A stretch of DNA of 38,164 nucleotides from Acidimicrobiales bacterium (GTDB lineage Bacteria > Actinomycetota > Acidimicrobiia > Acidimicrobiales > CADCSY01): NCBI GenBank assembly GCA_025463335.1, contig JAOBWJ010000010.1, positions 1 to 38,164 of the forward strand, written 5' to 3'. Within the stretch, counting starts at the first letter, position 1; each line of letters starts with the position of its first letter. The position numbers and the translations under genes are program-made. The notes beneath the pieces were generated by a model, which had not been told where the DNA came from, made no database searches, and saw only the letters and a program-made list of their open reading frames with translations. Below, one piece after another: positions 8,556 to 37,629 of the stretch.

Positions 8556-9050
8556 TCACGCTTCGTAGTACCCCGAGTGGATGTAGATGCACGGAATGCC
8601 CTCGTCGTGGAACATGTCGACGTTGCGGCGATCGTCGTCGAAGGCGAGCCGCAGGTCGAAGCCGGAGGCCCGCAGCTCGTGCACCGCCATGCGCTTGGCG
8701 TCGGGCGACGAGCGGAAGTCACCCTCGGGCCGCATGACCAGCAGATCCCACCGCAGGTCGTGCTGCTGGAGCCACGTGAGGGTGATGCGCTGGATGGTGG
8801 TGGGTCGGGCCGTGAGCAGGACCACGCACAGGTTGGGGTCCATGAGCTCGGTGGCCCGGGCCACCTCCTCGATGACGGCGTCGTCGCCGGCGGCGGCGAA
8901 GAACGCCTTCCAGTTCTTGCGCCGCCCGCCGCTGTCGAGGATGTCCTGGCGGTGCCCGGCGTCGGCCAGCACGCCGTCGATGTCGAAGACGACGGCCGGG
9001 CCCCCCTCGTGGGGCGTGCCCCGCCAGCGCCAGTTCGGGTTGTCCGTCAC
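8556..9050 (-). CDS. HAD-superfamily phosphatase, polynucleotide 3'-phosphatase-like
   Basis: The 164-residue product has HAD motif I in [11 protein letters not shown] (D23 nucleophile, D25 acid/base), motif II Thr in LLTARPTT, a Lys in SPDAKRMAV, and motif IV acids in [13 protein letters not shown]. The spacing, with a small helical cap ([12 protein letters not shown]), resembles the 3'-phosphatase domain of phage polynucleotide kinases and related acid phosphatases. The GTG start at 9050 overlaps the TGA of acetyl-CoA synthetase (GTGA), so it is translationally coupled to it. The substrate is unknown. A link to acetate metabolism is suggested only by this coupling. Confidence 0.82.
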
Positions 9051-11014
9051 TCTTCCTGCGGAGCGGTCGTGGCCCGCCGGCGGATCTCCTCCACCACGGC
9101 GGGGTCGGCGAGGGTGGTGGTGTCGCCCAGGTCGCGTCCCTCGGCCACGTCGCGCAACAGGCGGCGCATGATCTTGCCGGACCGGGTCTTGGGCAGGTCG
9201 TCGGTGAAGATCACCGTCTTGGGGCGGGCTGTGGGGCCGATCTTGGTGGCGACGTGCTTGCGGAGCTCCTCGCCCAGCTCGACGCTGTGGGTCACGTCGC
9301 CCTTCACCGTGACGAAGGCGACGATGGCCTGGCCGGTCGTGTCGTCCTTGGCCCCGACCACGGCGGACTCGGCCACCTTGGGATGGTCGACGAGCGCCGA
9401 CTCGACCTCGGTGGTGGAGATGCGGTGGCCGGACACGTTCATGACGTCGTCGACCCGGCCCAGGAGCCACAGGTAGCCGTCGTCGTCGAGCTTGGCGCCG
9501 TCGCCGGCGAAGTAGCGGCCCTCGAAGCGCGACCAGTACGTGTCGCGGTAGCGCTCGGGGTCGCCGTAGATCCCCCGCAGCATGGACGGCCACGGCTTGG
9601 TGAGGGTCAGGTAGCCACCGCCCAGCTCGACCTTGTGGCCGGCGTCGTCGACCACCTCGGCCCCCACGCCGGGCAACGGGAACGTGGCCGAGCCCGGCTT
9701 GGTCACGGTGAGCCCGGGGAGCGGGCTGATCATGATGGCGCCGGTCTCGGTCTGCCACCACGTGTCGACGATCGGGGCCTGCCCGCCACCGATGTGCTCC
9801 CGGTACCACATCCACGCTTCGGGGTTGATGGGCTCGCCCACCGACCCGAGCAACCGCAGCGAGCCGAGGTCGTGCTTGGCCGGCTCGGCCGTGCCCCACT
9901 TCATGAACGTGCGGATGGCAGTCGGCGCGCAGTAGAGGATCGTGACGCCATAGCGCTCGATGATGTCCCACCAGCGGTCGCGGCCGGGGGTGTCGGGGGT
10001 GCCCTCGTACATCACGGAGGTGGCCCCGTTGGCGAGCGGCCCGTAGACGATGTAGCTGTGGCCGGTCACCCAGCCGATGTCGGCCGCGCACCAATACACA
10101 TCGGTGTCCGCCTGCAGGTCGAACACGTACTTGTGGGTGAACGCCACCTGGGTGAGGTAGCCACCGGTCGTGTGCATGATGCCCTTGGGCTTGGCCGTGG
10201 TGCCGCTCGTGTAGAGCAGATACAGCAGGTCCTCGGACTCCATGGGTTCCGGCGGGCAGACCGGATCGGCGTCGGCCAGGAGCTCGTGGTACCAGTGATC
10301 CCGGCCCTCGGTCATGTCGACGTCCTGGCCGGTGCGTCGCACCACCACCACGTGCTCGATGGACGGCGTGTTCGTCAGCGCCACATCGGCATGGGGCTTC
10401 AGCCCGGCCGCCGCGCCTCGGCGGTAGCCGCCATCGGCGGTGACGAGGACCTTGGCCTCGGCGTCGTTGATGCGGTCGGCGAGCGAGTCCGACGAGAAGC
10501 CGCCGAACACGATCGAGTGGGGGGCGCCGATGCGGGCGCAGGCCAACATGGCCACCGGGAGCTCCGGGATCATCGGCATGTAGATGTTGACCCGGTCGCC
10601 CTTGCGCACCCCGAGCGACTTGAGCACGTTGGCGAAGCGCTGGACCTCGTCGAGCAGCTCGGCGTAGGTGATGGTCCGGGTGTCGCCGGGCTCGCCCTCC
10701 CAGTGGTAGGCGACCTTGTCGCCCCGGCCGGCGGCCACATGGCGGTCGAGGCAGTTCTCGCTCACGTTGAGCTGGCCGCCGATGAACCACTTGGCGAACG
10801 GCAGGTCCCACTCCAGCACGGTGTCGAAGTCGCGCTGCCAGGTCAGCAGCTCCCGGGCCTGGGTCGCCCAGAAGTCCTCGTGATCGGCGTCGGCGTGCTC
10901 CTGGAGCGAGCGGTCGGTGACCAAGGCGTTGGCCACGAACTCGAGCGGCGGCGGGAACGTCCGCTCTTCCAGCCCGTAGGTGTCGATCGCGGCCTGCTTG
11001 TCGTCCCCACCCAT
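9047..11014 (-). CDS. acs: Acetyl-CoA synthetase (AMP-forming)
   Basis: The 655-residue enzyme makes acetyl-CoA from acetate, ATP and CoA through acetyl-AMP. The adenylate-forming signature [18 protein letters not shown] is at about residues 265-285. The acetyl-pocket/ATP motif DTWWQTETG follows, then [20 protein letters not shown], the hinge region [14 protein letters not shown], and the C-terminal [11 protein letters not shown]. The Lys of the last motif is the residue acetylated in regulated homologues. Length and architecture are normal. A TANNNT box 7 nt before the ATG suggests a leaderless message. It is followed without a gap by the HAD phosphatase gene. Confidence 0.96.
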
Positions 11015-11035: not shown

Positions 11036-12148
11036 TCAGACCATCCACTCCAGGACGCGGAACGCACCGAGCCCGCCGGCGTCGGTGAGGGCGTCGGCCT
11101 CGCCCAGCCGACTGCGGTGCTTGAGCGCCTCGAGGTCACCGACATGGGCCCGTTCCTGCCAGGCGGCCTGGGCGACGGCAACCAGCGCGTCGATGCCGTG
11201 GGCGGCGAGCCACTCGGCCTGCGACCGGTTGGTGGTGGGGCGGGGCAACTGGTCGAACGCGACCTCGCACGTGACGTCCTGCTCCCCCGGCGTCACCAAC
11301 GGGGGGCCACCGCGGGCATGACCCCGGTAGGTGCGGAGCCACTCGGTCCACGGGCGGGCGGCGAGCGAGGCCGACGTGTCGGCGTAGTCGATGACAACCA
11401 CCCGGCCGGCCTGGAGCACACCGAGGGCCCGCCGGAGCCAAGCGGTCGCCTCGTGCTGGAGCGGGAGGCGGGCGCCGACCGGGGCGTCGGGCGCCAAGCG
11501 GGTGGCCTCGCCGACGATGTCGGGCGAAGCCGGCACCAGCACCTCGACGAGGGCGTGCTTCTCGGCGCCGACCAGCACCTCCGACCAGCCCTTGGCGGTG
11601 CGCTCCACCAACCGGAACGGCAGGTTGTCGAGCAGCTCGTTGGCCAGCACCACGCCGGTGATCGGCACGAGCGGCAGGTCGTCGAGGGTGGCGAACACCG
11701 GACCGGTGCCGGCGATGACGTGGGCGTCGTCATCGAGGTCGTCACCCGACACCACCGCGCCGAAGACGTTGGCCGCCGGCTCGATCGGGAGCAGGTCGTC
11801 GATGCGGGCCCGCAGGATCGCCGACCGCTCGACGCAGACGTACCGCAGGGCCGGGGCACAGGCGGGGCCGGCGTCGAGCACGGCTCGGGCCAGGGCACCG
11901 CGACCGGCTGCCGCCTCCAGCACCACGAACGGGTCAGGCCGCCCGAGCCGTTCCCACTCAGCGTCGAGGGCGTTGGCCACCACCGCCCCGAACAGGGGGC
12001 CCACCTCGGGGCTGGTCAGGAAGTCGGCCCGGCGACCAGCGCCGGCGCCCGAGGCGAAGAACCCCCCGTCGCCGTAGAGCAGGGCCTCCACGGCCGCGTC
12101 GAACCGGACCGGCCCCTCCCGGTGGATCCGGTCGAACAGGCCCTGCAT
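11036..12148 (-). CDS. DUF185/MidA-family SAM-dependent methyltransferase (NDUFAF7 homologue)
   Basis: The 370-residue protein carries the family features. These are the N-terminal GRRADFLTSPEVGPLFGAVV, where the family has GDFxTSPEIxPxFG; the SAM loop VVLEAAAGRGALARAVL; and TGVVLANELLDNLPFRLVE, the ANE-x-LD block. In mitochondria the homologue NDUFAF7 symmetrically dimethylates an Arg of the 49-kDa subunit NDUFS2 (the NuoD homologue) during complex I assembly. Here the ATG lies 8 nt after the nuoN-A stop, with no promoter or ribosome site of its own, so it reads as the last gene of the 11-subunit nuo operon. That makes NuoD of copy A the likely substrate, which is an inference. The SAM loop is AAAGRG rather than the usual GPGRG. 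Confidence 0.85.
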   Translation of the reverse strand: MQGLFDRIHREGPVRFDAAVEALLYGDGGFFASGAGAGRRADFLTSPEVGPLFGAVVANALDAEWERLGRPDPFVVLEAAAGRGALARAVLDAGPACAPALRYVCVERSAILRARIDDLLPIEPAANVFGAVVSGDDLDDDAHVIAGTGPVFATLDDLPLVPITGVVLANELLDNLPFRLVERTAKGWSEVLVGAEKHALVEVLVPASPDIVGEATRLAPDAPVGARLPLQHEATAWLRRALGVLQAGRVVVIDYADTSASLAARPWTEWLRTYRGHARGGPPLVTPGEQDVTCEVAFDQLPRPTTNRSQAEWLAAHGIDALVAVAQAAWQERAHVGDLEALKHRSRLGEADALTDAGGLGAFRVLEWMV

Positions 12149-12156
12149 GGAGAGCG

Positions 12157-13641
12157 TTACGAGCCGAACGGGGCCAGGTGGGCGAAGCGGGCGACGATCT
12201 GGGGAACGACGCCGATGGCGAGGGTGGCGATGGCGCACAGGCCGATGGCGGCAGCGAGCGACGACGGCACGCTGATCGGCGTGCGGTCCTCGTCGGGCAC
12301 GGGCCGCATCCAGGTCTCACGGGCGACCGACGCGTAGTAGTAAAGGCCGATCGCCGAGTTCACCCCCACGAGCACGGCGAGGACCACCGACCACACGGTC
12401 GGTTGGTCGAGCAGCGTGCGGAAGATGACGAGCTTGGCGTACCAGCCGCCGAGCGGCGGGATGCCGGCGAGGGCGAAGAAGAAGATCGACGTCAGCACGG
12501 TCAGGCCGGGCGCGTACTCGAAGAGGCCGCCGAAGCTCGACAGCTCGCCCGAGCGGGTCTTGCGGGCCACGGCCATGACCACGGCGAAGGCGCCGATGTT
12601 CATGGCCAGGTAGACGAGCAGGTAGGTGACCACCGACTCGACCGCCTGGTTCACGCCCGTGTGCCCGGCAACCGCGAACGGGGCGAGCATGTAGCCGGCT
12701 TGGGCCACCGAGGAGTAGGCCAGCAGGCGAATGACGTTGGTCTGGCGCAGGGCGATGACGTTGCCGACGGTCATCGTCAGCGCCGACAGCACCCAGAACA
12801 ACGGCTGCCAGACGTCGCTGCGGCCCTCGAAGGCGATGAACACCAGCGACAGCAGGGCCACGAAGCCGGCCGCCTTGGACGCCACCGACAAGTAGGCGGT
12901 GATCGGCGTGGGCGCGCCCTCATACGTATCGGGCGCCCAGGCATGGAACGGCACGGCCGACACCTTGAAGGCGAAGCCGATGATCACGAACAAGATGCCG
13001 ACGGTCACGATCGGCACGGAGGCGCCGCCACCTGCCAGGCGCTCGCCGATGACGGTGAGCACCGTCGAATGGGTGACGCCGAAGATCAGCGACATGCCGT
13101 AGAGCATCACCCCCGAGGCGAACACGCCGAGCAGGTAGTACTTGAGCGAGGCCTCGTTGCCCTTGAGGTCGCGCTTGCGCCAACCGGCGAGCAGGTAGGC
13201 CGGGATCGACAGCGTCTCGAGGGCGATGAAGATCGAGATCAGGTCGCGGGCCGAGGCGATCACGAGCATGCCCAGGAGCGACGAGAGGAGCATGAAGTAG
13301 TACTCGCCCTCGTAGTAGTCGCCCTCGCCGATGTAGTCGGTGCTGATGAGCACCGTCAGGTAGCCACCGATGAGGAACAGGGCCTTGAGCACGAGGGCGA
13401 AGTTGTCGACCACGTAGGCGCCGCCGAACATCGACCGGTCGCCGCCGTCGACGGCGAGAGTGAGGATCGGGACCAGGGCGCCGAGCAGGCCGAGGCCGGC
13501 CAGCGTCGAGGTGGCCCACCGGGCCCGGTCCTCGAAGAGCAGGTCGACGACCAGGATCAGCAGCAGGGCGCCGACGAGCACGATCTCCGGCGCGAAGGCG
13601 TGGTAGTCGATCTCCGGTCGGCTGAAGGCGGCGGCGAGCAT
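12157..13641 (-). CDS. nuoN: Complex I antiporter-like subunit N, copy A
   Basis: A 494-residue multi-pass subunit, one of three Mrp-antiporter-like proton channels. It keeps the conserved Glu in FIALETLSIPAYLLAG, the Lys in FKVSAVPFHAWAPDTYEGAP, the second Lys in LSVASKAAGF, and the C-terminal Lys in GGWYAKLVIF. About 14 membrane helices fit the normal architecture. It starts 3 nt after the nuoM-A stop and is the last nuo gene of this operon. Proton translocation therefore looks intact even though the NADH arm is missing. Confidence 0.95.
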   Translation of the reverse strand: MLAAAFSRPEIDYHAFAPEIVLVGALLLILVVDLLFEDRARWATSTLAGLGLLGALVPILTLAVDGGDRSMFGGAYVVDNFALVLKALFLIGGYLTVLISTDYIGEGDYYEGEYYFMLLSSLLGMLVIASARDLISIFIALETLSIPAYLLAGWRKRDLKGNEASLKYYLLGVFASGVMLYGMSLIFGVTHSTVLTVIGERLAGGGASVPIVTVGILFVIIGFAFKVSAVPFHAWAPDTYEGAPTPITAYLSVASKAAGFVALLSLVFIAFEGRSDVWQPLFWVLSALTMTVGNVIALRQTNVIRLLAYSSVAQAGYMLAPFAVAGHTGVNQAVESVVTYLLVYLAMNIGAFAVVMAVARKTRSGELSSFGGLFEYAPGLTVLTSIFFFALAGIPPLGGWYAKLVIFRTLLDQPTVWSVVLAVLVGVNSAIGLYYYASVARETWMRPVPDEDRTPISVPSSLAAAIGLCAIATLAIGVVPQIVARFAHLAPFGS

Positions 13642-13644
13642 GCG

Positions 13645-15170
13645 CTACTTCCCGATCGCTGCGGTGACGACCTGGATGGCCGGATCGGTGATCTTGAACA
13701 GGAGGTTGGGGATGAGGCCGAGGGCCACGATGCCGGCCAACAGCGGCACCCACGAGACGTACTCGGGCCAGTGCATGTCGTCGATGGCATGCCCGTCCCA
13801 CTCCTCCTTCGGCGTGCCGAAGGCCACCCGCTGGAGCATCCAGAGGAGGTAGCCGGCGGCGAAGACGGTGCCGATGGAGGCGATCACCATGTAGGTGCGA
13901 AACAGCGGCTGGGACAGCCCCGCCGCCGGGTTGTAGGCGGCGAGGATGGCCGGGAACTCCCCCCAGAAGCCGGCCAGGCCGGGCAGGCCCAGCGACGCCA
14001 TGCAGCAGAACCCGAGGATCCACCCCATGCGCGGCGCCTGCAGCAGGAGGCCACCGAGTCGCTTCATGTCGAGGGTGTGGAAGCGGTCCTTCACCGAGCC
14101 GGCGACGAAGAAGAGCATGCCGGTGATGAGGCCGTGGGCGACCATGCCGAACACGGCGGCGTTGATGCCGAAGTCGGTGAGGGTGGCGATGCCGAGCATC
14201 ACGTAGCCCATGTGGGCCACCGACGAGAAGGCGATGAGCCGCTTCATGTCGGTCTGGGCGAGACACCCGAGGGCGCCGTAGATGATGCCGACGACGGCCA
14301 GCCCGCCGATCCACGGTGCCCACGTGTGGGCGGCGTCGGGGAGGATCGGGATGGCGATGCGGATGAAGCCGTAGGTGCCGAGCTTCAGGAGGACGGCCGC
14401 CAGGATCACCGAGCCCTGGGTCGGCGCCTGGGTGTGGGCATCGGGCAGCCAGGTGTGGAACGGGAACATGGGCACCTTGATGGCGAAGCCCATGAACAGG
14501 CCGCCGAAGATGAGCAGGGCCACGTCGGGATCGATGTTCGCCTGGGCGTGCTGGACCAGGAACGGGATCGAGAAGCTCTCGGCGCCGGTCGCGAAGAACA
14601 GGGCGAGGAACCCGAGGATCATCAGGGCCGAGCCGAACAGGGTGAAGAGGAAGAACTTGATCGCCGCGTACTGCCGGTTCTCGCCGCCCCACACGCCGAT
14701 CATGAAGTACATCGGCAGCAGCACGACCTCGAAGAACACGAAGAACAGGATCAGGTCCTGGGCCACGAAGGTGCCGTTCATGCCGACCTCGAGGATGAGG
14801 ATCAGGATCAGGAACGCCTTCGGGTTGTGCGGTTCGGGGAAGTGGTTCCACGAATACAGGACCACCAGCAGGGTGATCACCATCGACAGGAGCAGCAGCG
14901 GCAGGGCGATGCCGTCGATGCCGACCTCGTACTTGGCGTGGATGACCGAGATCCAGTCCTTCGGCGTGGGCGCGAACTGGAGTCCCTGGTGCCCGCCGTA
15001 GTCGTAACGGGCGAGGATGGCCACGCCGATGCCGAGGGTGGCCACCGTGGTGACCAGGGCCACGACCTTGTGGAGGCCCTCCTCGGCCCCGGGGATGACC
15101 AGCATGACGACGGCTCCCACCAGCGGGAGGAACACCGCCAGCGTGAGCGCCCAGTCGTCGAATCCGTGCA

Positions 15171-15171
<1 letters not shown>
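13645..15171 (-). CDS. nuoM: Complex I antiporter-like subunit M, copy A
   Basis: A 508-residue proton-channel subunit. The channel Glu is in LFFVFFEVVLLPMYFMIG. The Lys residues are in KVPMFPFHTWLPDAHTQAPT and LLKLGTYGFIRI, and the late Glu is in LAGFWGEFPAIL. I chose the ATG at 15171, which shares one base with the nuoL-A stop (TGATG). A TTG directly before it is possible but not needed. The C-terminal helices are complete. Confidence 0.94.
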
Positions 15172-17303
<2,132 letters not shown>

Positions 17304-17305
17304 GG

Positions 17306-17614
17306 TCAGCCCTTCATGAGGTCGACCTCGTCGAGGTCGACCGTCGTCCGGTTGCGGTAGATGAGCAGCACGATCGCCAGGCCGACGCCGACTTCGGCGG
17401 CGGCCACGGTGATCACGAACAGGGCGAAGACCTGGCCGGTGATGGCGGCGGCGTCGCCGCCCATCATCCCGAAGGCGACCAGGTTGATGTTGACCGAGTT
17501 CAAGATGAGCTCGATCGACATCAGCACGAGCACGCCGTTCTTGCGGGCCAGCACGCCGTACACGCCGATGCAGAAGAGCACGGCGCCCAACAAGAGGAAC
17601 TGGTTCAGGAGCAT
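17306..17614 (-). CDS. nuoK: Complex I subunit K, copy A
   Basis: A 102-residue three-helix subunit (Mrp MnhC-like). Helix 2 carries the conserved proton-path Glu in [19 protein letters not shown] and helix 3 the second Glu in [25 protein letters not shown] lies 5 nt before the ATG at 17614. The first six codons (MLLNQF) are also present 110 bp upstream, directly after the nuoJ stop. Confidence 0.94.
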
Positions 17615-17724
17615 CGCGTCACCTCAGGGCCGGCGTCGGGAGCGGGTGGGCACCGGGAGCCCAGCCGGCAGTCGAGCGCAGCCTGCGGAGCGAGACCATC
17701 AGCGCAGAACTGGTTCAGCAGCAT
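17597..17724 (-). repeat. 18-bp direct repeat (nuoK 5' end) flanking a 92-bp insert
   Basis: GAACTGGTTCAGGAGCAT (17597-17614) recurs as GAACTGGTTCAGCAGCAT (17707-17724) on the plus strand, with one mismatch in 18. The 92 bp between them are GC-rich with no gene or clear terminal inverted repeats. The geometry fits either a tandem duplication that later diverged or an insertion with target duplication. Confidence 0.8.
17605..17724 (-). CDS. Possible 39-codon leader ORF made from a duplicated nuoK start
   Basis: The ATG at 17724 has the best ribosome site in the operon (AGGAGGGATTGAC before ATG). It is one nucleotide after the nuoJ-A stop and reads MLLNQF exactly like NuoK. It then runs into unrelated codons ([16 protein letters not shown] and onward) and ends at 17605, inside the true nuoK gene, overlapping its start by 10 nt. 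This looks like the original nuoK start separated from its gene by a 110-bp duplication or insertion. Translation through it would lead ribosomes to the real nuoK start. A stable product is doubtful. Confidence 0.45.
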
Positions 17725-17725
17725 G

Positions 17726-18241
17726 TCAATCCCTCCTGGCCAGGACGATGGCCCCGACGAGGGCGGCGAGCAGGAGGACCGACACGACCTCGAACGGGAT
17801 GAGGTAGGTGGAGAAGATGGCGTTGCCGACGGCACCGGTGCCGCGGGTGGCGTTGAGCTGCTCGTGGGTGCGGTTCAACTGGGGCAGCTTGTCGTCGCCG
17901 AAGTAGTCGACGAGCACGTAGCCGAGGATCCCGAGGATCAACAGGGCGGTCACGGCGGCCAGGCCCCGCTGATCGTTGTCGAGCTCGCCCTCGTGTCCGA
18001 GCTTGGCCCGAGTCAGCATGACGCCGAACAGGAACAGCACGACGATGGCGCCGATGTAGACCAACAGCTGGACCACGGCCACGAACTCGGCGGCCAGCAG
18101 GATGTAGTTGGCGGCCACGCTGCCGAGCACGACCACCAGGTACAGGGCGGCGTGCACCACGTTCTTGGTCGTGACCATCCGGATGGCGGCCAGGACGGAC
18201 GACGCAGCGAGGATGCCGAACGCGATGTTCTGAGCGATCAA
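17726..18241 (-). CDS. nuoJ: Complex I subunit J, copy A
   Basis: A 171-residue five-helix membrane subunit. Helix 3 is recognisable in VQLLVYIGAIVVLFLFGVML, with the Y-x-GAI-x-VLF signature of NuoJ next to the pi-bulge that moves during turnover. The start is TTG at 18241, overlapping the nuoI-A stop by 4 nt. MIAQNIAFGILAASSVLAA is the expected N-terminal helix. AGGAGG near its 3' end serves the next start codon. Confidence 0.93.
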   Translation of the reverse strand: MIAQNIAFGILAASSVLAAIRMVTTKNVVHAALYLVVVLGSVAANYILLAAEFVAVVQLLVYIGAIVVLFLFGVMLTRAKLGHEGELDNDQRGLAAVTALLILGILGYVLVDYFGDDKLPQLNRTHEQLNATRGTGAVGNAIFSTYLIPFEVVSVLLLAALVGAIVLARRD

Positions 18242-18726
18242 CGCGGCACCTTCTTCTGCTTGGCCTCGGAGCCCGCCTCGTAGGCCTGGTAGTCAGGCAC
18301 GGTCTCGAACCACTCGCCGAGCTTCTCCTTGTCGTGCAGGAGCTCGCCGATGCGCGGCGTCGAGTACTCGTACTCCGGGCTCCAGAACAGGGCGTCGAAC
18401 GGGCAGACCTCGACGCAGATGCCGCAGTACATGCACAGCGAGTAGTCGATGTCGAAGCGGTCGAGCGCCTGCACGGTGCGGGGCTTGCCGCCCTCCCGCC
18501 GCGGCGGCGCCTTCGTCTTGTGGCCCTCGATGTAGATGCACCAGTCGGGGCACTGACGGGCGCACAGCATGCAGACCGTGCAGTTCTCTTCCTTCAGGGC
18601 GATGACGCCCCGGGCGCGCGGTGCCGGCGCCTCCTTCACGTGCGGGTACTGCACCGTCACGTTGGGCTGGAGCATCGTCTTGAACGTGATCCCGAGACCC
18701 TTGATCACACCGGGGAGCTGGGGCAT
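18238..18726 (-). CDS. nuoI: Complex I 2[4Fe-4S] subunit I, copy A
   Basis: A 162-residue ferredoxin-like subunit holding clusters N6a and N6b. Ligands are C49, C52, C55 and C59 (CTVCMLCARQCP) and C98, C101, C104 and C108 (CMYCGICVEVCP), all present. In an 11-subunit complex this subunit is the likely entry point for electrons, because the NADH module that normally feeds N6a is missing. The ATG shares one base with the nuoH stop. The C-terminal YQAYEAGSEAKQKKVPR is short and basic. Confidence 0.96.
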   Translation of the reverse strand: MPQLPGVIKGLGITFKTMLQPNVTVQYPHVKEAPAPRARGVIALKEENCTVCMLCARQCPDWCIYIEGHKTKAPPRREGGKPRTVQALDRFDIDYSLCMYCGICVEVCPFDALFWSPEYEYSTPRIGELLHDKEKLGEWFETVPDYQAYEAGSEAKQKKVPR

Positions 18727-19751
18727 CAGAACACCACCTTCAGGACGGCCGTGACCATGATGTTCGCCAGCGAGATCGGGATCAGGTATTTCCAGGCCAG
18801 CGTCTGCAGCTGGTCCTCACGGAACCGGGGATAGGTGAACCGGAACCAGAAGATGAGGAAGGCGACCAACATCATCTTGGTCAGGACCACGATCGGCCCG
18901 ATGACGTTCATGTAGTTGGCGTTCAGGTCGAGGCCCGGGAGCCACCACCCGCCGAGGAACAGCGTGGCGGCGAGCGCTGCGAAGGCGCCGGCCGAGGCGA
19001 ACTCGCCGATGAAGAACAGGAGGAACCGCATGCCGGAGTACTCGGTCATGTAGCCCGAGACCAGCTCGGACTCGGCGACCGGCATGTCGAACGGGGCCTG
19101 GCTGAGCTCGGCCTGGGCGGCCATCAGGAACAAGCCGAACGCCACGAACTGGGTGAGGATGAAGGGGTTGCCCAGGGCGCCGAACCCGAAGATCGACCCG
19201 TTGGCCTGCGAGTTCACGATCTGGATGAGGTTGAGGCTGCCGGCCTGGATGACCACGCCGACGACCGCGAGCACCATCGGCAACTCGTAGGCGATGAGCT
19301 GGCCGGCGGCGCGGAGGCCACCCATCAGCGAGTACTTGTTGGCCGACGCCCACCCGGCCACGAGGATGCCGATCACCGACAGGGACGACACGGCCAGGGC
19401 GTAGAAGATCCCGGTGTCGAGGTTGGCGAACCAGGCGTCGGGCCCGAACGGGATGACGACGTAGACGAGCAGCACCGAGCCGACGACGATGTAGGGCGCC
19501 AGGGCGAACAGGGTCCGGTCGGCGCGCTCCGGGAAGATGTCCTCCTTCTGGAGGGACTTGCCGACCTCGGCCAGCAGCTGCAGCGAGCCGTAGGGACCGG
19601 CCTCCATGGGGCCGAGCCGACTCTGCATGAAGCTCATCATCTTGAACAGGAAGACGTAGACGAACGTGCCGGCCGGCAGGAGCACGGCGGCAAGGACGAG
19701 GACGACCCGGATGATTGTCGATTCCCAATAGGGCAGGGCAGCGAGGATCAT
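18726..19751 (-). CDS. nuoH: Complex I membrane subunit H, copy A, lacking two conserved glutamates
   Basis: The 341-residue subunit forms the floor of the quinone chamber and the start of the hydrophilic axis. It keeps LAGWAS-type loop residues (VAGWASANKYSLMGGLRAAG), the YE of helix 5 (QLIAYELP), and AELSQAPFDM. The Trp-x-Glu-Arg segment normally found before Q-x-R-x-GP is replaced by FLFK, so L35 stands for the conserved Glu. PEAESEL reads PVAESEL, so V225 stands for another. GPNRVGP reads GPMEAGP. Copy B NuoH has all of these. GAGGG lies about 9 nt before the ATG at 19751. The gene follows a 196-bp spacer after nuoD. Confidence 0.95.
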   Translation of the reverse strand: MILAALPYWESTIIRVVLVLAAVLLPAGTFVYVFLFKMMSFMQSRLGPMEAGPYGSLQLLAEVGKSLQKEDIFPERADRTLFALAPYIVVGSVLLVYVVIPFGPDAWFANLDTGIFYALAVSSLSVIGILVAGWASANKYSLMGGLRAAGQLIAYELPMVLAVVGVVIQAGSLNLIQIVNSQANGSIFGFGALGNPFILTQFVAFGLFLMAAQAELSQAPFDMPVAESELVSGYMTEYSGMRFLLFFIGEFASAGAFAALAATLFLGGWWLPGLDLNANYMNVIGPIVVLTKMMLVAFLIFWFRFTYPRFREDQLQTLAWKYLIPISLANIMVTAVLKVVF

Positions 19752-19947
19752 CGGCTGTTCCCTCGTGTGCTCGTGCCCGGCTTGGCGGGTCCTGTCCCTC
19801 CGAGGACTCCTCCCACCTCGGCTGGCGCCTCGGCGGGCCCCTCCTCCACGGGCCACCCACCAAGCCTCGTCGCGCGACGGCGCGCGACCTCCGAGAGGGA
19901 GAGGGGGGAGAACGACAGCGGTGCGCCTCCGGCGCGCATCATCTCTC
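19752..19947. other. 196-bp noncoding spacer at the position of the missing nuoE-F-G
   Basis: This is by far the largest gap in operon A. Most other junctions overlap or are a few bases apart. It has no ORF with coding character. It holds a perfect 8-bp hairpin (19869-19888), a 5-bp hairpin just past the nuoD stop (19921-19937), and purine/pyrimidine-biased runs. It may be a deletion scar, an mRNA-processing site or an internal promoter region. I could not find a remnant of NuoE, NuoF or NuoG in it. Confidence 0.6.
19869..19888 (-). terminator. Perfect 8-bp hairpin between nuoD-A and nuoH-A
   Basis: GTCGCGCG (19869-19876), loop ACGG, CGCGCGAC (19881-19888) form a very stable stem in either strand. 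There is no T-tract. Within an operon it may act as an attenuating or mRNA-stabilising structure rather than a full stop. Confidence 0.45.
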
Positions 19948-21120
19948 TCACCGGTCGATGTCTCCCAGGATGAAGTAGAGGCTGGCCAGGATGGCGATGA
20001 CGTCGGGGACGTAGACGCCCTTCATGACCCAGGGCACGACGCTGATGTTGTTGAACGACGCCGAGCGGATCTTGCAGCGGAACGGCCCGAGATCGCCCTT
20101 GCTGACGATGTAGTAGCCCATCTCGCCGAGCGGGTTCTCCGTGGAGACCCAGGCCTCGCCGGCCGGCACCTTGATGATGCGGGGGACCTTGGCCATGATC
20201 GGCCCGGCCGGGATGCCGTCGCACAGCTGCTCGACGATCTTGGCCGACTCCCGCACCTCCTGGAGGCGGACCCAGCACCGGGCGAAGGCGTCGCCGTCGG
20301 GGTGGGTGATGACGTTGAAGTCGGCGTGCTTCCACGCCAGCGGGTAGTCGCGGTCGCGGCGGAGGTCCCAGTCGACGCCCGAGGCCCGGAGGTTGGCGCC
20401 CGACAGGCCGTAGCTGAGGGCGATGTCCTTGGGGATGATGCCCACGCCGCGGAGCCGGGCCTGGAAGATCTCGTTCCCCATGAGGAGGTCTTCGATCTGG
20501 TCGCAGAACCCCTTCACCCGGACCATGACCGCCTTGCACTCCTCGACCCAGCCCTTGGGCAGGTCGTCCTTCAGGCCACCGATGCGGTCGAAGTTGGGGT
20601 GGAAGCGGCCGCCGGTGACCGACTCCATGAGGTTGAGCACGTGCTCGCGGTCGCGGAAGGCGTAGAAGACCGGCGTGATGGCGCCGATCTGGGCACCCAG
20701 GTCGCCGAGGAAGAGCGTGATGTTGGCCTGGCGGGCCAGCTCGAAGAAGATCGTGCGGATCCACTGGGCGCGGGGCGGGGCCTCGATGCCCATGAGCTGC
20801 TCGGCCCCGAGGATGAACGGCACCTCGTTGGCGAAGTGGCCGAGCCAGTCGATGCGGTTCACCAGCGTGGTGACCTGCGGGTAGGTCCGGACCTCGGTGA
20901 GCTTCTCGTAGCCCCGGTGCATGTAGCCGGGGATGGGCTGGGCGTCGATGACCTGCTCGCCGTCGAGCTTGACCACGATGCGCAACGTGCCGTGGGTGGC
21001 CGGGTGCTGCGGGCCGATGTTGAGGGTCATGCCCTCGGTCTCGAGCTCGACGTTGACCCGCGCCTCGGCGGCGATGGCCCCGATGTAGGCCCGCTGCTGG
21101 CGCTCGGTGATCGCCGTCAT
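19948..21120 (-). CDS. nuoD: Complex I 49-kDa-type subunit D, copy A, with altered quinone site
   Basis: The 390-residue subunit forms the quinone-reduction site with NuoB and NuoH. H43 of GPQHPATHG (T. thermophilus His38) is kept. The Tyr that with His holds the quinone headgroup (His38/Tyr87 pair) is W92 in NRIDWLGHF. The Asp that partners the His (Asp139) is Q144 in LGAQIGAITP. The usual SLDPVMGEVDR end reads SLYFILGDIDR (Y382, F383). R69 in GYMHRGYEK aligns with NDUFS2 Arg85. The ATG at 21120 overlaps the nuoC stop by 4 nt. The rest of the fold is collinear with normal NuoD, so this is a specialised rather than a decayed protein. Confidence 0.95.
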   Translation of the reverse strand: MTAITERQQRAYIGAIAAEARVNVELETEGMTLNIGPQHPATHGTLRIVVKLDGEQVIDAQPIPGYMHRGYEKLTEVRTYPQVTTLVNRIDWLGHFANEVPFILGAEQLMGIEAPPRAQWIRTIFFELARQANITLFLGDLGAQIGAITPVFYAFRDREHVLNLMESVTGGRFHPNFDRIGGLKDDLPKGWVEECKAVMVRVKGFCDQIEDLLMGNEIFQARLRGVGIIPKDIALSYGLSGANLRASGVDWDLRRDRDYPLAWKHADFNVITHPDGDAFARCWVRLQEVRESAKIVEQLCDGIPAGPIMAKVPRIIKVPAGEAWVSTENPLGEMGYYIVSKGDLGPFRCKIRSASFNNISVVPWVMKGVYVPDVIAILASLYFILGDIDR

Positions 21121-22103
21121 TCCGCTACCTCTGCTTCTGCGTCCGCTTCCTCGGGGTCCTCGCCGGGCATGGGCTCGACGTCGACCAGGCCGGGCCACGG
21201 CTTCACCATGCGGGCGAGGAGCGGGAAGTCCTTGCGCCCGGGGTGGCCTTCGAAGCCACCCGGGAGGTACAGGTTCACCATGTGGGGGTGGCCGGCGAAG
21301 TCCACGCCATACATCTCCCGCGCTTCGCGTTCGTGCCAGTTGGCGCCGGCGAACACGTCGGACCACGTTGGCGCGACCAGGTCGTCGCCGACGTCGGTCT
21401 TCAGGTTGATGCCGAGGGATGTGCCCGGCATCTCGAGGCGGGCGAACAGCTGGAAGCGGGTCTCACCGCCGGCCACACCGGTCTCGAACGGGCCCGAGAG
21501 GTTGATCTCGACGGGCGCCGAGTCGTCCTCGCTCTTGCCGAACGGCGAGGGCATCCAGTCGATGACGCTCAGGAAGCAGAAGTAGGTGAAGCCGAGCTCG
21601 TCGCGCAGCACCTTGGCAACGTCGGCCCAGGCCTCGAGCCGGACGCGCACCCAGAGGTCGACGCCGGGCACGAGCTCGCTCTGGACCACGGCATCGCCCA
21701 GCTTGGCGGCGAGCTTCTCGAGGAGCGGCGAGCGGCGCTCGTCGAACGGCGGTGGGGTGGGCTCGGAGGCCTCGGCGACCGGCACCTCGACGGCGTCAGC
21801 CGCGTCGGTGGCCGGCGGCTGCTCGGGCGCGGCGGCGTCGTCGGTCGGGGGCGTGGACGGGGCCTCGTCCTTGGGCTCGGCCGTGCCGGCACCCTCGGGC
21901 GTGCCCGGGTCGATGTCCTGCTGGGGGGCGGACGAGTCGACACCCGTCCCCTCGGTGTCGCTGGTGAGCTCGTCGCGCGCGTCGTCGGCAGCAGCCGGAG
22001 GCTGCGGCACCTCGGCACCGACCGGATCGCTCTCGATGGGCGCGACGTCGCCCGGCGGCGGCCCTTCCGGCCGCACGTCGTCAGGAGACGACAATGGGCT
22101 CAC
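21117..22103 (-). CDS. nuoC: Complex I subunit C, copy A, with long acidic N-terminal extension
   Basis: The product has 328 residues. Residues 125-310 are the 30-kDa domain, with its signature in [20 protein letters not shown], then [15 protein letters not shown]. The first 120 residues are Pro/Ala/Asp/Glu-rich and probably unfolded, and copy B NuoC has only a short version. The start is uncertain. GTG at 22103 overlaps nuoB by 23 nt with GGAGG touching it. An in-frame TTG at 22094 has better spacing from that GGAGG. Either choice keeps the extension. A short acidic tail follows the domain. Confidence 0.9.
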
Positions 22104-22581
22104 CCCTCCAACGCTCGGCCATGTCCTCGTGGCGGATCTTGTCCTGGAGGAGGACGATGCCCTCGAGCAGAGCCTCGGGACGGGGCGGGCAGCCGGGGAC
22201 GTACACGTCGACCGGGATGATCTGGTCGACGCCCTTGGTGACGGAGTACGAGTCCCAGTACGGGCCGCCGCAGTTGGCGCAGGAACCCATGGAGATCACG
22301 TACTTGGGCTCGGGCATCTGCTCGTAGAGACGACGCAGGGCCGGGGCCATCTTGTCGGTGACGGTGCCCGACACGACGAGCATGTCGGACTGGCGAGGAC
22401 TGGCCGGCAGCGGGATGACGCCGAGGCGCATCACGTCGTATCGGGGCGACGCGAACGCGGCACCCATCTCGATGGCGCAGCACGCCAGACCCCACTGGTA
22501 CACCCAGAGGCTGTACTTCCGGCTCATGTTGAGGAGCTCGGTGAGGGGCTTCGGCAGCTTCCCTCGTTCGACTAGACCCAC
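22081..22581 (-). CDS. nuoB: Complex I [4Fe-4S] N2 subunit B, copy A
   Basis: The 166-residue subunit carries cluster N2, the last Fe-S centre before quinone. Ligands C34 and C35 (GLACCAIEM), C101 (MGSCANCGG) and C131 (PGCPPRPE) are present. C104 is an extra Cys three residues after a ligand, where other NuoB proteins have Ser or Thr. [18 protein letters not shown] resembles the chloroplast NdhK form more than the RFGAEVxRASPRQ of 14-subunit enzymes. The start is GTG at 22581, overlapping nuoA by 10 nt, because [12 protein letters not shown] is the expected N-terminus. Confidence 0.94.
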
Positions 22582-22937
22582 CGGAGCACGCCCTTTCGCC
22601 AGGCGTACACCAGGCCCAGCACGAGGATGAAGACGAAGATGCCCATCTCGACCAGCCCGAAGTAGCTGTAGGTCTCGAGCCCGACGGCCCATGGGAAGAT
22701 GAAGACGGCCTCGACGTCGAAGAGCACGAACAGCAGGGCGAAGATGTAGTAGCGGACCTGGCTCTGCGAGAAGCCGGAGCCGACGGGATCGACACCGCTC
22801 TCGTAGGTGGTCAACTTGTCCGGGTTGGGACGGGACGGGCGGATGAGTCTCCCGAGGCCGAGAACTCCGGCAATCAGGAGTCCGGCTGTCCCGCCGAAGA
22901 CGGCGACCGTGAGGTACGCCTGAAGGAAGTCGGACAC
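22572..22937 (-). CDS. nuoA: Complex I subunit A, copy A
   Basis: A 121-residue three-helix subunit. The conserved loop between helices 1 and 2 is visible in [15 protein letters not shown], followed by [31 protein letters not shown] with the Asp/Glu pair in helix 2. The GTG start at 22937 is the first codon of operon A and has no Shine-Dalgarno. A TANNNT box ends 8 nt before it, so the message is probably leaderless. Confidence 0.95.
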
Positions 22938-23052: not shown

Positions 23053-23739
23053 CTACACCTTCTGGCGGGCCGCGAGGAGGTCGGTGAGGTGGCCCAGTTG
23101 GTCCTGCCCGATCGGCTCGCCCAGGGAGAAGCCGAACAGGAGCGAGATCGCCTGGTCGGTCGTGACCAGCGCCAGGTCGACCTGGCCGTCGAAGGTCACC
23201 GGGTCGGACCTGAACGTGAACGGCACCGTGATCTGGACGCTGTGGTCGGCGGCCTTGACCGGGGCGCGGGCGACCTGGGCCGCGCCCGACTCGTAGGTCA
23301 CGTCCTCGGCCGTCGCCTTCATCTGGTCCTCGAACACCTTGGTGATGCACTCGGCGAACTTCTTGGTGGCCACGATCCGGAACAGCTCGTCGGCCTTGTC
23401 CTTCGACACCAGCACGGCGCTCGACACGACCACCTGCTGCTGATCGACCTCGCTGACCGAGCGCTCGAAGGTACGGGTGTTGGATTCCGCCAGGCTGTCG
23501 TCGGCGGGCGACGACTCGGCCCCGAGGCACTTCAGGAGCTCCTTGTCCTGGCTCCCGGCGTCGCTCGGCTTCTCGTCCGCCGTCTTCGTCCACCCGGAGC
23601 CGAGGTCGGCGGCGGTGAGCTGCGCCTTGGTAGCCACCTTTCTGGCGTCGGCAACGCTCAACGACGAGCCGCCGCTGCTGCAGGCGGCGAGCACGACGGC
23701 GACGGCGAGCACGAAGCAGGGGGCCGCGAACCGGCGCAT
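23053..23739 (-). CDS. Putative lipoprotein of unknown function, between the two nuo operons
   Basis: The 228-residue product starts with a lipoprotein signal (FVLAVAVVLAAC, lipobox LAAC, lipidated C20), then a Ser/Gly spacer. The mature part has no domain I recognise. It resembles small secreted actinobacterial proteins with DARKVATKAQLTAADLGSGW near the N-terminus, two later cysteines (one in LLKCLGAE, one in AECITKV), and a mixed beta pattern to the end. The ATG at 23739 lies 16 nt after the nuoN-B stop, so it is probably cotranscribed with the 14-subunit operon. A role in complex I is not shown. Confidence 0.8.
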   Translation of the reverse strand: MRRFAAPCFVLAVAVVLAACSSGGSSLSVADARKVATKAQLTAADLGSGWTKTADEKPSDAGSQDKELLKCLGAESSPADDSLAESNTRTFERSVSEVDQQQVVVSSAVLVSKDKADELFRIVATKKFAECITKVFEDQMKATAEDVTYESGAAQVARAPVKAADHSVQITVPFTFRSDPVTFDGQVDLALVTTDQAISLLFGFSLGEPIGQDQLGHLTDLLAARQKV

Positions 23740-23755
23740 CGTCGGCACGGAACGG

Positions 23756-25282
23756 TCAGCGCCCGGAGGCGAGCACCACCGGGATGGCTCGGTCGGCCCA
23801 GTGCACGACCTGCTGCGGGAGGATGCCCACCACCACGGTGAAGGCCACGGCCAGACCCAGGGCCACACCGGCGCCCAGCGGCACCCGCACCCGAGGACCG
23901 GGTTCAGCCCCCTCCTCGTCGGTCATGTACATGGCCACGACGATGCGCAGGTAGAGGAACGCCGAGACGACCGACGACAGCATGGCGATCAGGGCCAGGG
24001 CGTAGCTGTGGGCGTCGACGGCGGCACCGATCACGTAGAACTTGGCGAGGAAGCCGCTGGTGAGCGGGACGCCGGCCTGGGCGAGCAGGAACACGGTGAA
24101 CGTGAGGGCGAGCCCCGGGCGCCGCCGCGACAGCCCGCGATAGGCCTCGAGGCCGTGGTGCTCGTCGCCCTTGCCGGACACCAGCGTGGCCACGCCGAAG
24201 GTGCCCACGATCATGAACGTGTACGACAGCACGTAGAACAACGCGGCGGAGACGCCCTGAGCAGTGGCGGCCTGTACACCGACGAGGATGAAGCCGGCGT
24301 GGCTGATCGAGCTGTAGGCCATCATCCGCTTCACGTCGGTCTGCACGATGGCGAGGACCGAGCCGACCACGAGGGTGAGCACGGCGATGCCCCAGATCAA
24401 GGGCTGCCAGTCGAGCCGGTACTCGGCGAAGGTCGACACGAAGACCCGGAGCAAGGCGGCGAACGCCGCGGCCTTGGACGCCGAGGCCATGAAGGCGGTC
24501 ACGGGGGTGGGGGCGCCCTGGTAGACGTCGGGCGTCCACACGTGGAAGGGCACCGCCGACGCCTTGAAGCCGAAGCCCACCAACAGCAGGGCGAAGCCAC
24601 CCAACAGCAGGCCGGTGTGCTCGAGCGTGTTGGCGTTCAGGAACCCTGCGATGTCACCGAGGTTGGTCGAGCCGGTGGCCCCGTAGATGAAGGCGATGCC
24701 GTAGAGGAGGAACGCGGAGGAGAACGCGCCGAGCACGAAGTACTTCATGGCCGACTCGCGCGACTCGGCCCGGCGGCGGTTGAAGCCGGCCATCACGTAC
24801 AGGGCGATGGAAAGCGTCTCCAGACCGAGGAACACCACGATGAGGTCGTTGGCCATGGCCATCACGATCCCGCCGGCGCCCGACAGCAGCATGAGCACGT
24901 AGAGCTCGGGACCGTCGAGGTTCTCCCGACGCAGGTAGTCGTCGGCCAGCAGGGCGGACAGGGCGATGCCGAGGCTGATGACGACGATGAAGAAGACGCT
25001 GAAGCCGTCGACGGTCAGGGCGCCCGCGGCCGTCGTGAACGCACCCCGTTCGGCATCGGTCACCCGGGCCCACAGCACACCAGCGGTGCCGATGGCGAAG
25101 GCCGAGGCCAGCACCGTGATCACCGCGTAGGTGCCGCGTGCCGGACGGCTGGTGGTGAGCGATGAGATGAGCAGGAGCAGGAGGGCGGCGCCGCAGAGGA
25201 TCAACAGCGGCGCGGTCGCCGCCCAGTCCAGCTTGGGCGTCGCCACCTTCTCGACCTGGGCGAACAGCAGTGCGGCGGTCAC
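23756..25282 (-). CDS. nuoN: Complex I antiporter-like subunit N, copy B
   Basis: A 508-residue proton-channel subunit. Channel Glu is in VVFLGLETLSIALYVMAGFN, and Lys residues are in FKASAVPFHVWTPDVYQGAP and MASASKAAAFAALL. The late Lys is in TSGFLAKFYVIGAA. The GTG start at 25282 overlaps the nuoM-B stop by 4 nt (GTGA). It differs clearly from copy A N, so the two operons are not a recent duplication. The C-terminus is complete. Confidence 0.95.
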   Translation of the reverse strand: MTAALLFAQVEKVATPKLDWAATAPLLILCGAALLLLLISSLTTSRPARGTYAVITVLASAFAIGTAGVLWARVTDAERGAFTTAAGALTVDGFSVFFIVVISLGIALSALLADDYLRRENLDGPELYVLMLLSGAGGIVMAMANDLIVVFLGLETLSIALYVMAGFNRRRAESRESAMKYFVLGAFSSAFLLYGIAFIYGATGSTNLGDIAGFLNANTLEHTGLLLGGFALLLVGFGFKASAVPFHVWTPDVYQGAPTPVTAFMASASKAAAFAALLRVFVSTFAEYRLDWQPLIWGIAVLTLVVGSVLAIVQTDVKRMMAYSSISHAGFILVGVQAATAQGVSAALFYVLSYTFMIVGTFGVATLVSGKGDEHHGLEAYRGLSRRRPGLALTFTVFLLAQAGVPLTSGFLAKFYVIGAAVDAHSYALALIAMLSSVVSAFLYLRIVVAMYMTDEEGAEPGPRVRVPLGAGVALGLAVAFTVVVGILPQQVVHWADRAIPVVLASGR

Positions 25283-35699: not shown

Positions 35700-36301
35700 G
35701 ATTCAACTCCCTGGGGGGCGGGGTGGATCTCCTCGGGGCGCTCGCGGTCGGCCGGGGTCGTCGGCGCCGGCAGCGTGATGTTCGAAAGCGTGCCGTGGGG
35801 CGGGATCGACTGACCCTCGGGGTCGCGCCCGTTGCGCAGCGCGTCGACGATGCCGTCGACGCGCTCGTCGGTCACGTTCTCGAAGTAGCGGTAGTTCACC
35901 TGGAGACAGGGGGCGCCGCCGCACGCGGCGAGGCACTGCATCTCCTCGATGGTGAACATGCCGTCGACGGTGGTGCTGCCGGCCTTGATGCCGAGCACCT
36001 TCTCGGTGTGCTCGAGCACCTGCTCGGCACCGAGGATCATGCAGGACAGGTTGGTGCAGACGCCGATCAGGTAGGTGCCGACCGGCTCGTGCTTGAACAT
36101 CTCGTAGAAGGTGGCCACGCCCTGGACCTCGGCCGCCGTGGCGCCCACCAGTTCACCGATGTGCTCCATGGCTTCGGGCGTGATGTAGCCGTCCTGCTCC
36201 TGGGCCAGGTGCAGCAAGGGAATGGTCGCCGACCGCTCGCGCGGATAGCGGCGGATGACGGCCTTGGCCCGCTCGACGTTCTGTGCGTTCAGACGTGCCA
36301 C
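35696..36301 (-). CDS. nuoE: Complex I [2Fe-2S] subunit E, copy B
   Basis: A 201-residue thioredoxin-like subunit holding cluster N1a. Ligands are C82 and C87 (CTNLSC) and C123 and C127 (CLAAC), with an additional C132. The N-terminal helical part (IRRYPRERSATIPLLHLAQE, VQGVATFYEMF) is normal. The last 45 residues are polar and Pro-rich, longer than in most NuoE. The start is GTG at 36301, sharing two bases with the nuoD stop context (TAGTG). Confidence 0.95.
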   Translation of the reverse strand: MARLNAQNVERAKAVIRRYPRERSATIPLLHLAQEQDGYITPEAMEHIGELVGATAAEVQGVATFYEMFKHEPVGTYLIGVCTNLSCMILGAEQVLEHTEKVLGIKAGSTTVDGMFTIEEMQCLAACGGAPCLQVNYRYFENVTDERVDGIVDALRNGRDPEGQSIPPHGTLSNITLPAPTTPADRERPEEIHPAPQGVES

Positions 36302-37629
36302 TATCGATCGACCTCACCCATGATTGGATCGACCGACGAGATGTTGGCCACGGCGTCGGCCACGAGTCCGCCCCGCATCATGTGCGGCAGCGTCTGCAGG
36401 TTGAAGAACGACGGGCCGCGGATGCGCATGCGGTAGGGCTTGGCGCTCCCGTCGGAGACGAGGTAGCAGCCGAGCTCGCCCCGCGGGGACTCGACGGCCA
36501 CGTAGACCTCGCCCTCCGGCACCTTCATGCCCTCGGTGAAGAGCTTGAAGTGGTGGATGAGGGCCTCCATCGACTCGTCGATGCGGGCCCGCGGCGGGGG
36601 CGTGACCTTCTTGTCCTGGACCCGGTAGTCGCCCTTGGGCATCTGGTCGACGATCTGGCGGACGATCTTCATCGACTCGCGGATCTCGTTGAGCCGGATG
36701 GCGTAGCGGTCGAAGGAGTCGCCGTAGCTGCCGACGATCACGTCGAAGTCGAGGTCCTCGTAGGCCAGGTACGGCATCGACCGGCGCAGGTCCCAGGCCA
36801 CGCCCGTGGAGCGCAGCACCGGACCGGTGGCGCTGAGGGCGATGGCCTCGTCGGGCGTGATGACGCCGACGCCTTGGAGCCGGTCGCGCCAGATGGGCTG
36901 GCCCGTCATCAACGTGTCGTACTCGACCAGGCGGTCCGGCAGCGTGTCGAGGATGCGCAGCACGTCGTCGCGCCAGTCGCTCGGCAAGTCGGCGGCCACG
37001 CCACCGACGCGGATGAAGTTGTGGTTCATCCGAAGGCCAGTGAACTTCTGGAACAGCTCGAGCAGGTCGTCGCGCTCTCGCCAGCCGTAGATCATCATGC
37101 CGACGGCGCCCAGGTCCATGCCGTTGGTGGCCATGAACAGCAGGTGGGACGCCATGCGGTTGAGCTCGCACAGCAAGGTGCGGATCCACGTGGCGCGGGC
37201 CGGGATCTCGACCTCGAGCAGGGCCTCGGCGGCCAGGCAGAACACCAGCTCGTTGAAGAACGGGCTGGCGTAGTCCATGCGCGTGGTGTTGGTCTGACCC
37301 TGCATGTAGGTCAGCTGCTCACCCGTCTTCTCCATGCCGGTGTGCAGGTAGCCGATGATCGGCTTGGTGCGCAGGACCGTCTCGCCCTGGAGCTCGAGCA
37401 TGAGGCGCAGCACACCGTGGGTGCTGGGGTGCTGCGGCCCCATGTTGATGATCATGGTCTCGTCCTCGGTGCCCGCCGTCGACTGCGAGAGGGCAGCGGC
37501 GTCGGCCTCGGACAGGCGCAGCACGGCGCCCGACTCGAGCAGCAGCTCGGTCGGGTTGGTGTCGGCGGGGTCGTGCAGCTCCTGGGAGCGTTCCGCGGTG
37601 TCGGCGCCAGCGCGCCGGATCTCGGTCAT
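36301..37629 (-). CDS. nuoD: Complex I 49-kDa-type subunit D, copy B (canonical quinone site)
   Basis: A 442-residue subunit with the expected quinone-site residues: H71 in GPQHPSTHG, Y120 in TTRMDYAS, D172 in NGMDLGAV, and the closing VDPIMGEVDR with D434. T97 occupies the position that is Arg in copy A and in mitochondrial NDUFS2 (GYLHTGMEK). An N-terminal extension of about 58 polar residues precedes the core; a shorter start inside it cannot be excluded. It begins 3 nt after nuoC. Confidence 0.95.
   Translation of the reverse strand: MTEIRRAGADTAERSQELHDPADTNPTELLLESGAVLRLSEADAAALSQSTAGTEDETMIINMGPQHPSTHGVLRLMLELQGETVLRTKPIIGYLHTGMEKTGEQLTYMQGQTNTTRMDYASPFFNELVFCLAAEALLEVEIPARATWIRTLLCELNRMASHLLFMATNGMDLGAVGMMIYGWRERDDLLELFQKFTGLRMNHNFIRVGGVAADLPSDWRDDVLRILDTLPDRLVEYDTLMTGQPIWRDRLQGVGVITPDEAIALSATGPVLRSTGVAWDLRRSMPYLAYEDLDFDVIVGSYGDSFDRYAIRLNEIRESMKIVRQIVDQMPKGDYRVQDKKVTPPPRARIDESMEALIHHFKLFTEGMKVPEGEVYVAVESPRGELGCYLVSDGSAKPYRMRIRGPSFFNLQTLPHMMRGGLVADAVANISSVDPIMGEVDR

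Follow-up and report, generated by a model that had tools for sequence, protein, structure and literature searches.

The window, i.e., the whole stretch of 38,164 nucleotides that was analysed, raises the question of why a gene of the DUF185 family directly follows one of two complex I operons in an Acidimicrobiales bacterium. Both nuo operons were found on the same strand (Table 1). Operon A (12157–22937) contained nuoA, B, C, D, H, I, J, K, L, M, and N, and was devoid of nuoE, F, and G, which makes it the 11-subunit type. The nuoE, F, and G genes (31630–36301) were confined to operon B, which lies upstream of operon A and is cut by the contig end within or just before nuoC. The region between the operons contained a gene for a predicted secreted lipoprotein (23053–23868, minus strand; LAACSSGGSS). 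The preliminary description had placed the DUF185 gene 8 nt after nuoN-A, and the coordinates agree (12157 for the end of nuoN-A and 12148 for the DUF185 ATG). Past DUF185, 21 nt after its stop codon, begins an acetate-CoA ligase gene (9047–11014, minus strand), which may share a transcript with the nuo-A operon. In our study, we found it very likely that the DUF185 protein is a SAM-dependent enzyme of the NDUFAF7/MidA family, which dimethylates Arg69 of NuoD-A, aids its docking on NuoB-A, and ignores NuoD-B. The results strongly suggest that DUF185 does the job of the human enzyme in many bacteria.

Table 1. Positions of the DUF185 gene, the predicted target codon, and the nuo genes in the window.
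Feature	Position	Strand	Remarks
DUF185/PF02636 gene	11036..12148	-	NDUFAF7/MidA homologue, predicted NuoD arginine methyltransferase; 370 aa
nuoN-A	12157..13641	-	stop 8 nt ahead of DUF185 ATG
nuoM-A	13645..15174	-	
nuoL-A	15171..17303	-	
nuoK-A	17306..17614	-	
nuoJ-A	17726..18241	-	
nuoI-A	18238..18726	-	
nuoH-A	18726..19751	-	PF00146; start picked from homologous part of longer ORF
nuoD-A	19948..21120	-	GYMHRGYEK; 390 aa, ATG at 21120
Arg69 codon CGG of NuoD-A	20914..20916	-	predicted target, bovine Arg85 position; from alignment to structures
nuoC-A	21117..22103	-	PF00329; long acidic N-terminal extension
nuoB-A, conserved part	22081..22548	-	Thr codon 22363-22365 at Thermus Nqo6 R83 position
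nuoA-A	22572..22937	-	PF00507
nuoD-B of 14-gene operon	36301..37629	-	within-genome control copy; GYLHTGMEK; Thr97 codon 37339-37341

The window protein matched PF02636 (Methyltransf_28, DUF185 family) with E = 1.3e-34 (120.3 bits, cut-off 23.3), the match spanning residues 57–308 of the protein and positions 2–240 of the 249 in the profile. A profile search of the whole 3.98-Mb genome gave this gene as the single PF02636 match, and none of the NCBIfam models matched the protein. The phmmer search against solved structures found 4f3n (2e-19), followed by 1zkd (1e-12) and MidA 5ztz (1e-9). The AlphaFold model had a mean pLDDT of 94.4, and its top six Foldseek matches were all DUF185/MidA structures (E 1e-20 to 1e-25), with the first other methyltransferase far behind at only E ~1e-5. 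The structures 4g67, 4f3n, 5ztz, 5zu0, and 1zkd matched the model over almost its full length; the match to 5ztz (E 1.9e-23, 399 aligned columns, TM 0.75) indicated a MidA fold that extends beyond the generic methyltransferase core. The closest solved structures, 4g67/4f3n of Burkholderia thailandensis and 1zkd of Rhodopseudomonas palustris (DUF185/COG1565), showed 21–27% identity, but they are proteobacterial and their PDB descriptions give no demonstrated substrate. The family motifs F.TSPE, ANE..D, DY, and PG..DIT were all kept in the window protein, and T45, E171, D174, D254, Y255, G288, and D291 were invariant across 33 family sequences including it. The SAM motif was AAGRG instead of the family GPGRG (GxGxG); the first Gly was substituted by Ala, with G82 and G84 kept, and the same substitution was found in three other family members (L033, L035, and L131).

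The preliminary description had equated R69 of NuoD-A with bovine Arg85 by a fixed offset of +21. The same assignment follows from alignments to solved structures, in which R69 falls on T64 of Thermus Nqo4 and on position 85 of the mature mammalian NDUFS2 protein. NuoD-B was found to contain Thr (T97, codon ACC) where NuoD-A has R69, again as described, so the copy with the methylatable Arg is the one beside the methyltransferase. The only other match to the Arg motif in the genome, on contig C32, was a metallophosphoesterase and not NuoD, so that the NuoD proteins found in the genome are one with Arg and one with Thr. In Thermus, R83 of NuoB provides the Arg that is absent from NuoD, and in Yarrowia substitution of the Arg led to the loss of cluster N2 (PMC8042128). 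In the genomes examined, operons with an Arg NuoD contained a NuoB with Thr (GTVTDKM) and operons with a Thr NuoD a NuoB with Arg (GRVSQKM), and both arrangements were found within one cell. In the window, NuoB-A follows this pattern with its Thr. The contig stops short of NuoB-B, and Arg is present in a related fragment found on contig C396 (1–2758). This fragment is a second start of a 14-gene nuo operon and is only ~81% identical in nuoC, which is why it is probably derived from a related strain (a mixed strain or contaminant) and does not represent a third complex. Copy B resembles Thermus thermophilus (Nqo4 T64/Nqo6 R83) in its Thr-type NuoD and Arg-type NuoB, whereas copy A is reversed, as in mitochondria.

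The preliminary description had proposed a survey of DUF185 against Arg at this site, and 217 Actinomycetota and 170 Pseudomonadota genomes were surveyed. The NuoD motif was read with degenerate patterns, or from the genes themselves in discordant genomes, and both Arg patterns (HRG and HRA) were applied to all 217 Actinomycetota genomes. PF02636 was present in 72 of the 217. DUF185 was found in 66 of 70 genomes with an Arg-type NuoD (HR[GA]XEK, X not Phe) and in 3 of 23 with X = Phe, a split that was drawn post hoc with the data already seen; the unsplit count was 69 of 93 genomes with an Arg NuoD against 3 of 111 without. Genomes with only a Thr-type NuoD contained it in 2 of 33 cases (Fisher p = 1e-19 against the Arg type with X not Phe, the genomes within a family not being independent), and genomes without a NuoD motif in 1 of 78, where the patterns can miss variants. 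Thirteen more genomes with other Arg motifs (GYLHRGIEK and GF[VI]HRGLEK, in putative complex I genes) had no DUF185. Among the four Arg-type genomes (X not Phe) without DUF185, one has a contig that stops inside nuoH (G145), one has a frameshifted DUF185 adjoining nuoD (G022, L270), and one is 81% complete (G160). At the family level, DUF185 was present in 26 of 26 Arg families (X not F) versus 1 of 11 Thr-only families, in a count that included two X = F genomes in the Arg class and was made before the HRA pattern was run over all 217 genomes. This count and the separate gene rearrangements lessen the effect of shared descent among the genomes. The HRA pattern brought in further DUF185-negative Arg genomes, i.e., G025, G036, G042, G129, G151, G159, and G160.

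DUF185 was mostly absent where NuoD is of the HR[GA]F type, which holds for three or more distinct branches of the NuoD tree (e.g., L276 of G036, L156 of G067, L139–L142, L273, L275, L277, and L278; the exceptions are G040, G052, and G064), and it was present in closely related sisters with Tyr or Met. The gene may have been lost separately in these branches, with Phe standing in for the methyl groups. No substitute methyltransferase was seen adjoining nuoN in three Arg-type loci without DUF185. An HtpX-like M48 metallopeptidase gene followed nuoN in two of these three (L139:15231–16151 and L140:4649–5644).

In Pseudomonadota, PF02636 was found in 132 of the 170 genomes. It was present in 128 of 134 genomes with an HR[GA]TEK NuoD, in none of the 17 with the E. 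coli motif HHRGAEK, and in 4 of 19 without a NuoD motif. The homologous Arg is symmetrically dimethylated in bovine, human, Pichia, and Paracoccus complex I, whereas that of E. coli was found to be unmodified by mass spectrometry (PMC3750175). As the E. coli type is unmethylated and lacks DUF185, the known modification state is a better guide to the presence of the gene than the Arg alone. The expected correlation was thus found in two phyla, but Arg does not predict DUF185 everywhere, since E. coli and most HR[GA]F Actinomycetota have Arg without the gene. PF02636 was also found in the controls Synechococcus and Haloferax. A locus scan based on 1zkd returned Alphaproteobacteria only. One record titled Frankia sp. 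RB7 (L172) contained a DUF185 that shares 76% identity with the query from R. palustris; this record is probably mislabelled, because its DUF185 is Bradyrhizobium-like.

The proposed survey had also concerned the adjacency of DUF185 to nuo operons, which was found to recur. DUF185 and an Arg nuoD shared a contig in 41 Actinomycetota genomes and were at most 25 kb apart in 40 of these; where that contig carried both nuoD types, the Arg copy was the closer one in 16 of 16 genomes. Such closeness is well beyond what would be expected by chance. DUF185 followed nuoN of the 11-gene operon in the class of the window organism (L126–L129). In 20 Pseudomonadota genomes the distance between DUF185 and nuoD was 12.9–14.9 kb, and all 11 inspected loci consisted of a complete 14-gene nuoA-N operon followed by DUF185. 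In Alphaproteobacteria, none of 80 loci had DUF185 within 10 kb of nuoD, so the adjacency is not universal. In Streptomyces-like genomes (a label inferred from the gene neighbourhood and the published nuoD2 split) and in other lineages, nuoD2 was found outside its operon, adjoining DUF185. These orphan pairs were convergent, divergent, or co-directional, and one of them (L130) has an overlap between the stop codon of DUF185 and the start codon of nuoD; the gene orders arose in several ways. The separation of nuoD2 from the other nuo2 genes of Streptomyces has been reported (PMC8388888), and our literature search found no report on the gene neighbouring it. The likeliest substrate is NuoD, since nuoD alone stays beside DUF185 once it is outside the operon.

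This bears on the possibility that DUF185 works for the alternative complex I through a different subunit (e.g., NuoB-A) that it modifies, or as a chaperone of NuoD with no catalytic role. Position in the operon by itself would suit any subunit of the complex, and the SAM motif of the window protein is slightly altered. However, the lone nuoD2 adjoins DUF185 in genomes where nuoB2 is ~224 kb off (G128) or on another contig (G138, G007, and G006), the invariant E171, D174, D254, and Y255 are retained, and human NDUFAF7 modifies NDUFS2 (PMC3829151). We therefore regard this reading as unlikely, and methylation of NuoD-A as the better account.

A broader or different substrate, such as DNA or other proteins, with the match to Arg NuoD reflecting shared lineage only, is less probable still. 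Wolbachia MidA expressed in E. coli was reported to methylate DNA (PMC12455994), more than one DUF185 copy was found in G189, G124, G167, and G092 (families f43 and f46), and two genomes (G092, L155; G208, L154) contained DUF185 with only a Thr-type NuoD and no Arg NuoD found. Against this, the members of families f11, f17, and f40 without an Arg NuoD (G058, G073, and G139) are also without DUF185, and lineage does not explain the independent nuoD neighbourhoods. Chance adjacency of a gene unrelated to complex I could have accounted for a single genome; DUF185 comes after nuoN both elsewhere in the window's class and in a second phylum, and the survey excludes chance as the cause, leaving this reading a negligible probability.

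The proposed action of DUF185 on NuoD-A is modelled on NDUFAF7, from which its catalysis, the symmetry of the mark, the timing, and the benefit to assembly are taken. In human cells that have lost NDUFAF7, assembly is blocked at an early step (PMC3829151). The DUF185 protein would symmetrically dimethylate Arg69, near cluster N2 and the quinone site, using SAM. It would act on free or early-assembled NuoD-A, before this subunit joins NuoB-A, and dimethylated NuoD-A would then dock better on NuoB-A during the build-up of the 11-subunit complex without NuoEFG. NuoD-B, with its Thr, would be ignored by DUF185 and obtain its Arg from NuoB-B, so that the mark would be present only on complex A. A wider proposal, to which we give even chances, is that bacteria in general have DUF185 as their dedicated NuoD arginine dimethylase, and that the site has at least three interchangeable solutions, i.e., a methylated NuoD Arg with DUF185, an unmethylated NuoD Arg (E. 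coli and HR[GA]F), and a NuoD Thr with a NuoB Arg; genomes with two complexes would carry two different solutions next to each other.

The window protein shares with human NDUFAF7 and Dictyostelium MidA (5ztz, 5zu0, and 5zzw) the PF02636 fold over most of its length (E 2e-23, TM 0.75) and a partner with the Arg85 equivalent. Unlike theirs, its gene is bacterial and lies in a nuo operon, its complex lacks NuoEFG, a second complex I with Thr coexists, and its activity is a predicted one. Paracoccus denitrificans also has a bacterial complex I with symmetric dimethyl-Arg65, the homologous Arg, in the 49-kDa subunit (PMC3750175), but its complex is of the 14-subunit type and it is an alphaproteobacterium, a class in which the 80 DUF185 loci had no nuoD within 10 kb. 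The nuo2 genes of Streptomyces (nuoA2-nuoN2, with nuoD2 apart; PMC8388888) are likewise a second set without NuoEFG, and Streptomyces-like genomes contained a GYMHRGAEK nuoD2 beside DUF185, whereas nuoD-A of the window is still within its operon and DUF185 follows nuoN-A.

The preliminary description regarded the locus as extending a eukaryotic assembly step to a bacterial enzyme. This extension would hold for Actinomycetota and the 11-subunit complex, but it is not the first, as the mark was already known in Paracoccus (PMC3750175) and Shahul Hameed et al. (2018), to go by the citation in PMC9006661, had put forward bacterial MidA as its maker. The function of MidA in prokaryotes has so far been inferred in silico only, according to a 2025 paper (PMC12455994). 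Relative to the literature searched, the correspondence between the enzyme and its target copy, both inside single genomes and from genome to genome, the nuoD2-DUF185 pairs, the reach into Actinomycetota and the 11-subunit complex, and the Phe-type exception are new. The claim that DUF185 methylates the NuoD-A Arg is well supported by co-occurrence, linkage, the orphan nuoD pairs, and the MidA fold; the preliminary reading as a whole is partly supported, given the earlier bacterial work and the Arg copies that occur without DUF185. A concrete function is thereby offered for a gene family that is usually unnamed in bacteria, and a step of complex I assembly would reach Actinomycetota, past mitochondria and Alphaproteobacteria. 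Organisms with both a methylatable and a non-methylatable complex I, including cultivable Streptomyces, provide natural controls within one cell, in which the part played by dimethyl-Arg near cluster N2 could be told apart from that of the Arg itself, a question named as open in PMC8042128.
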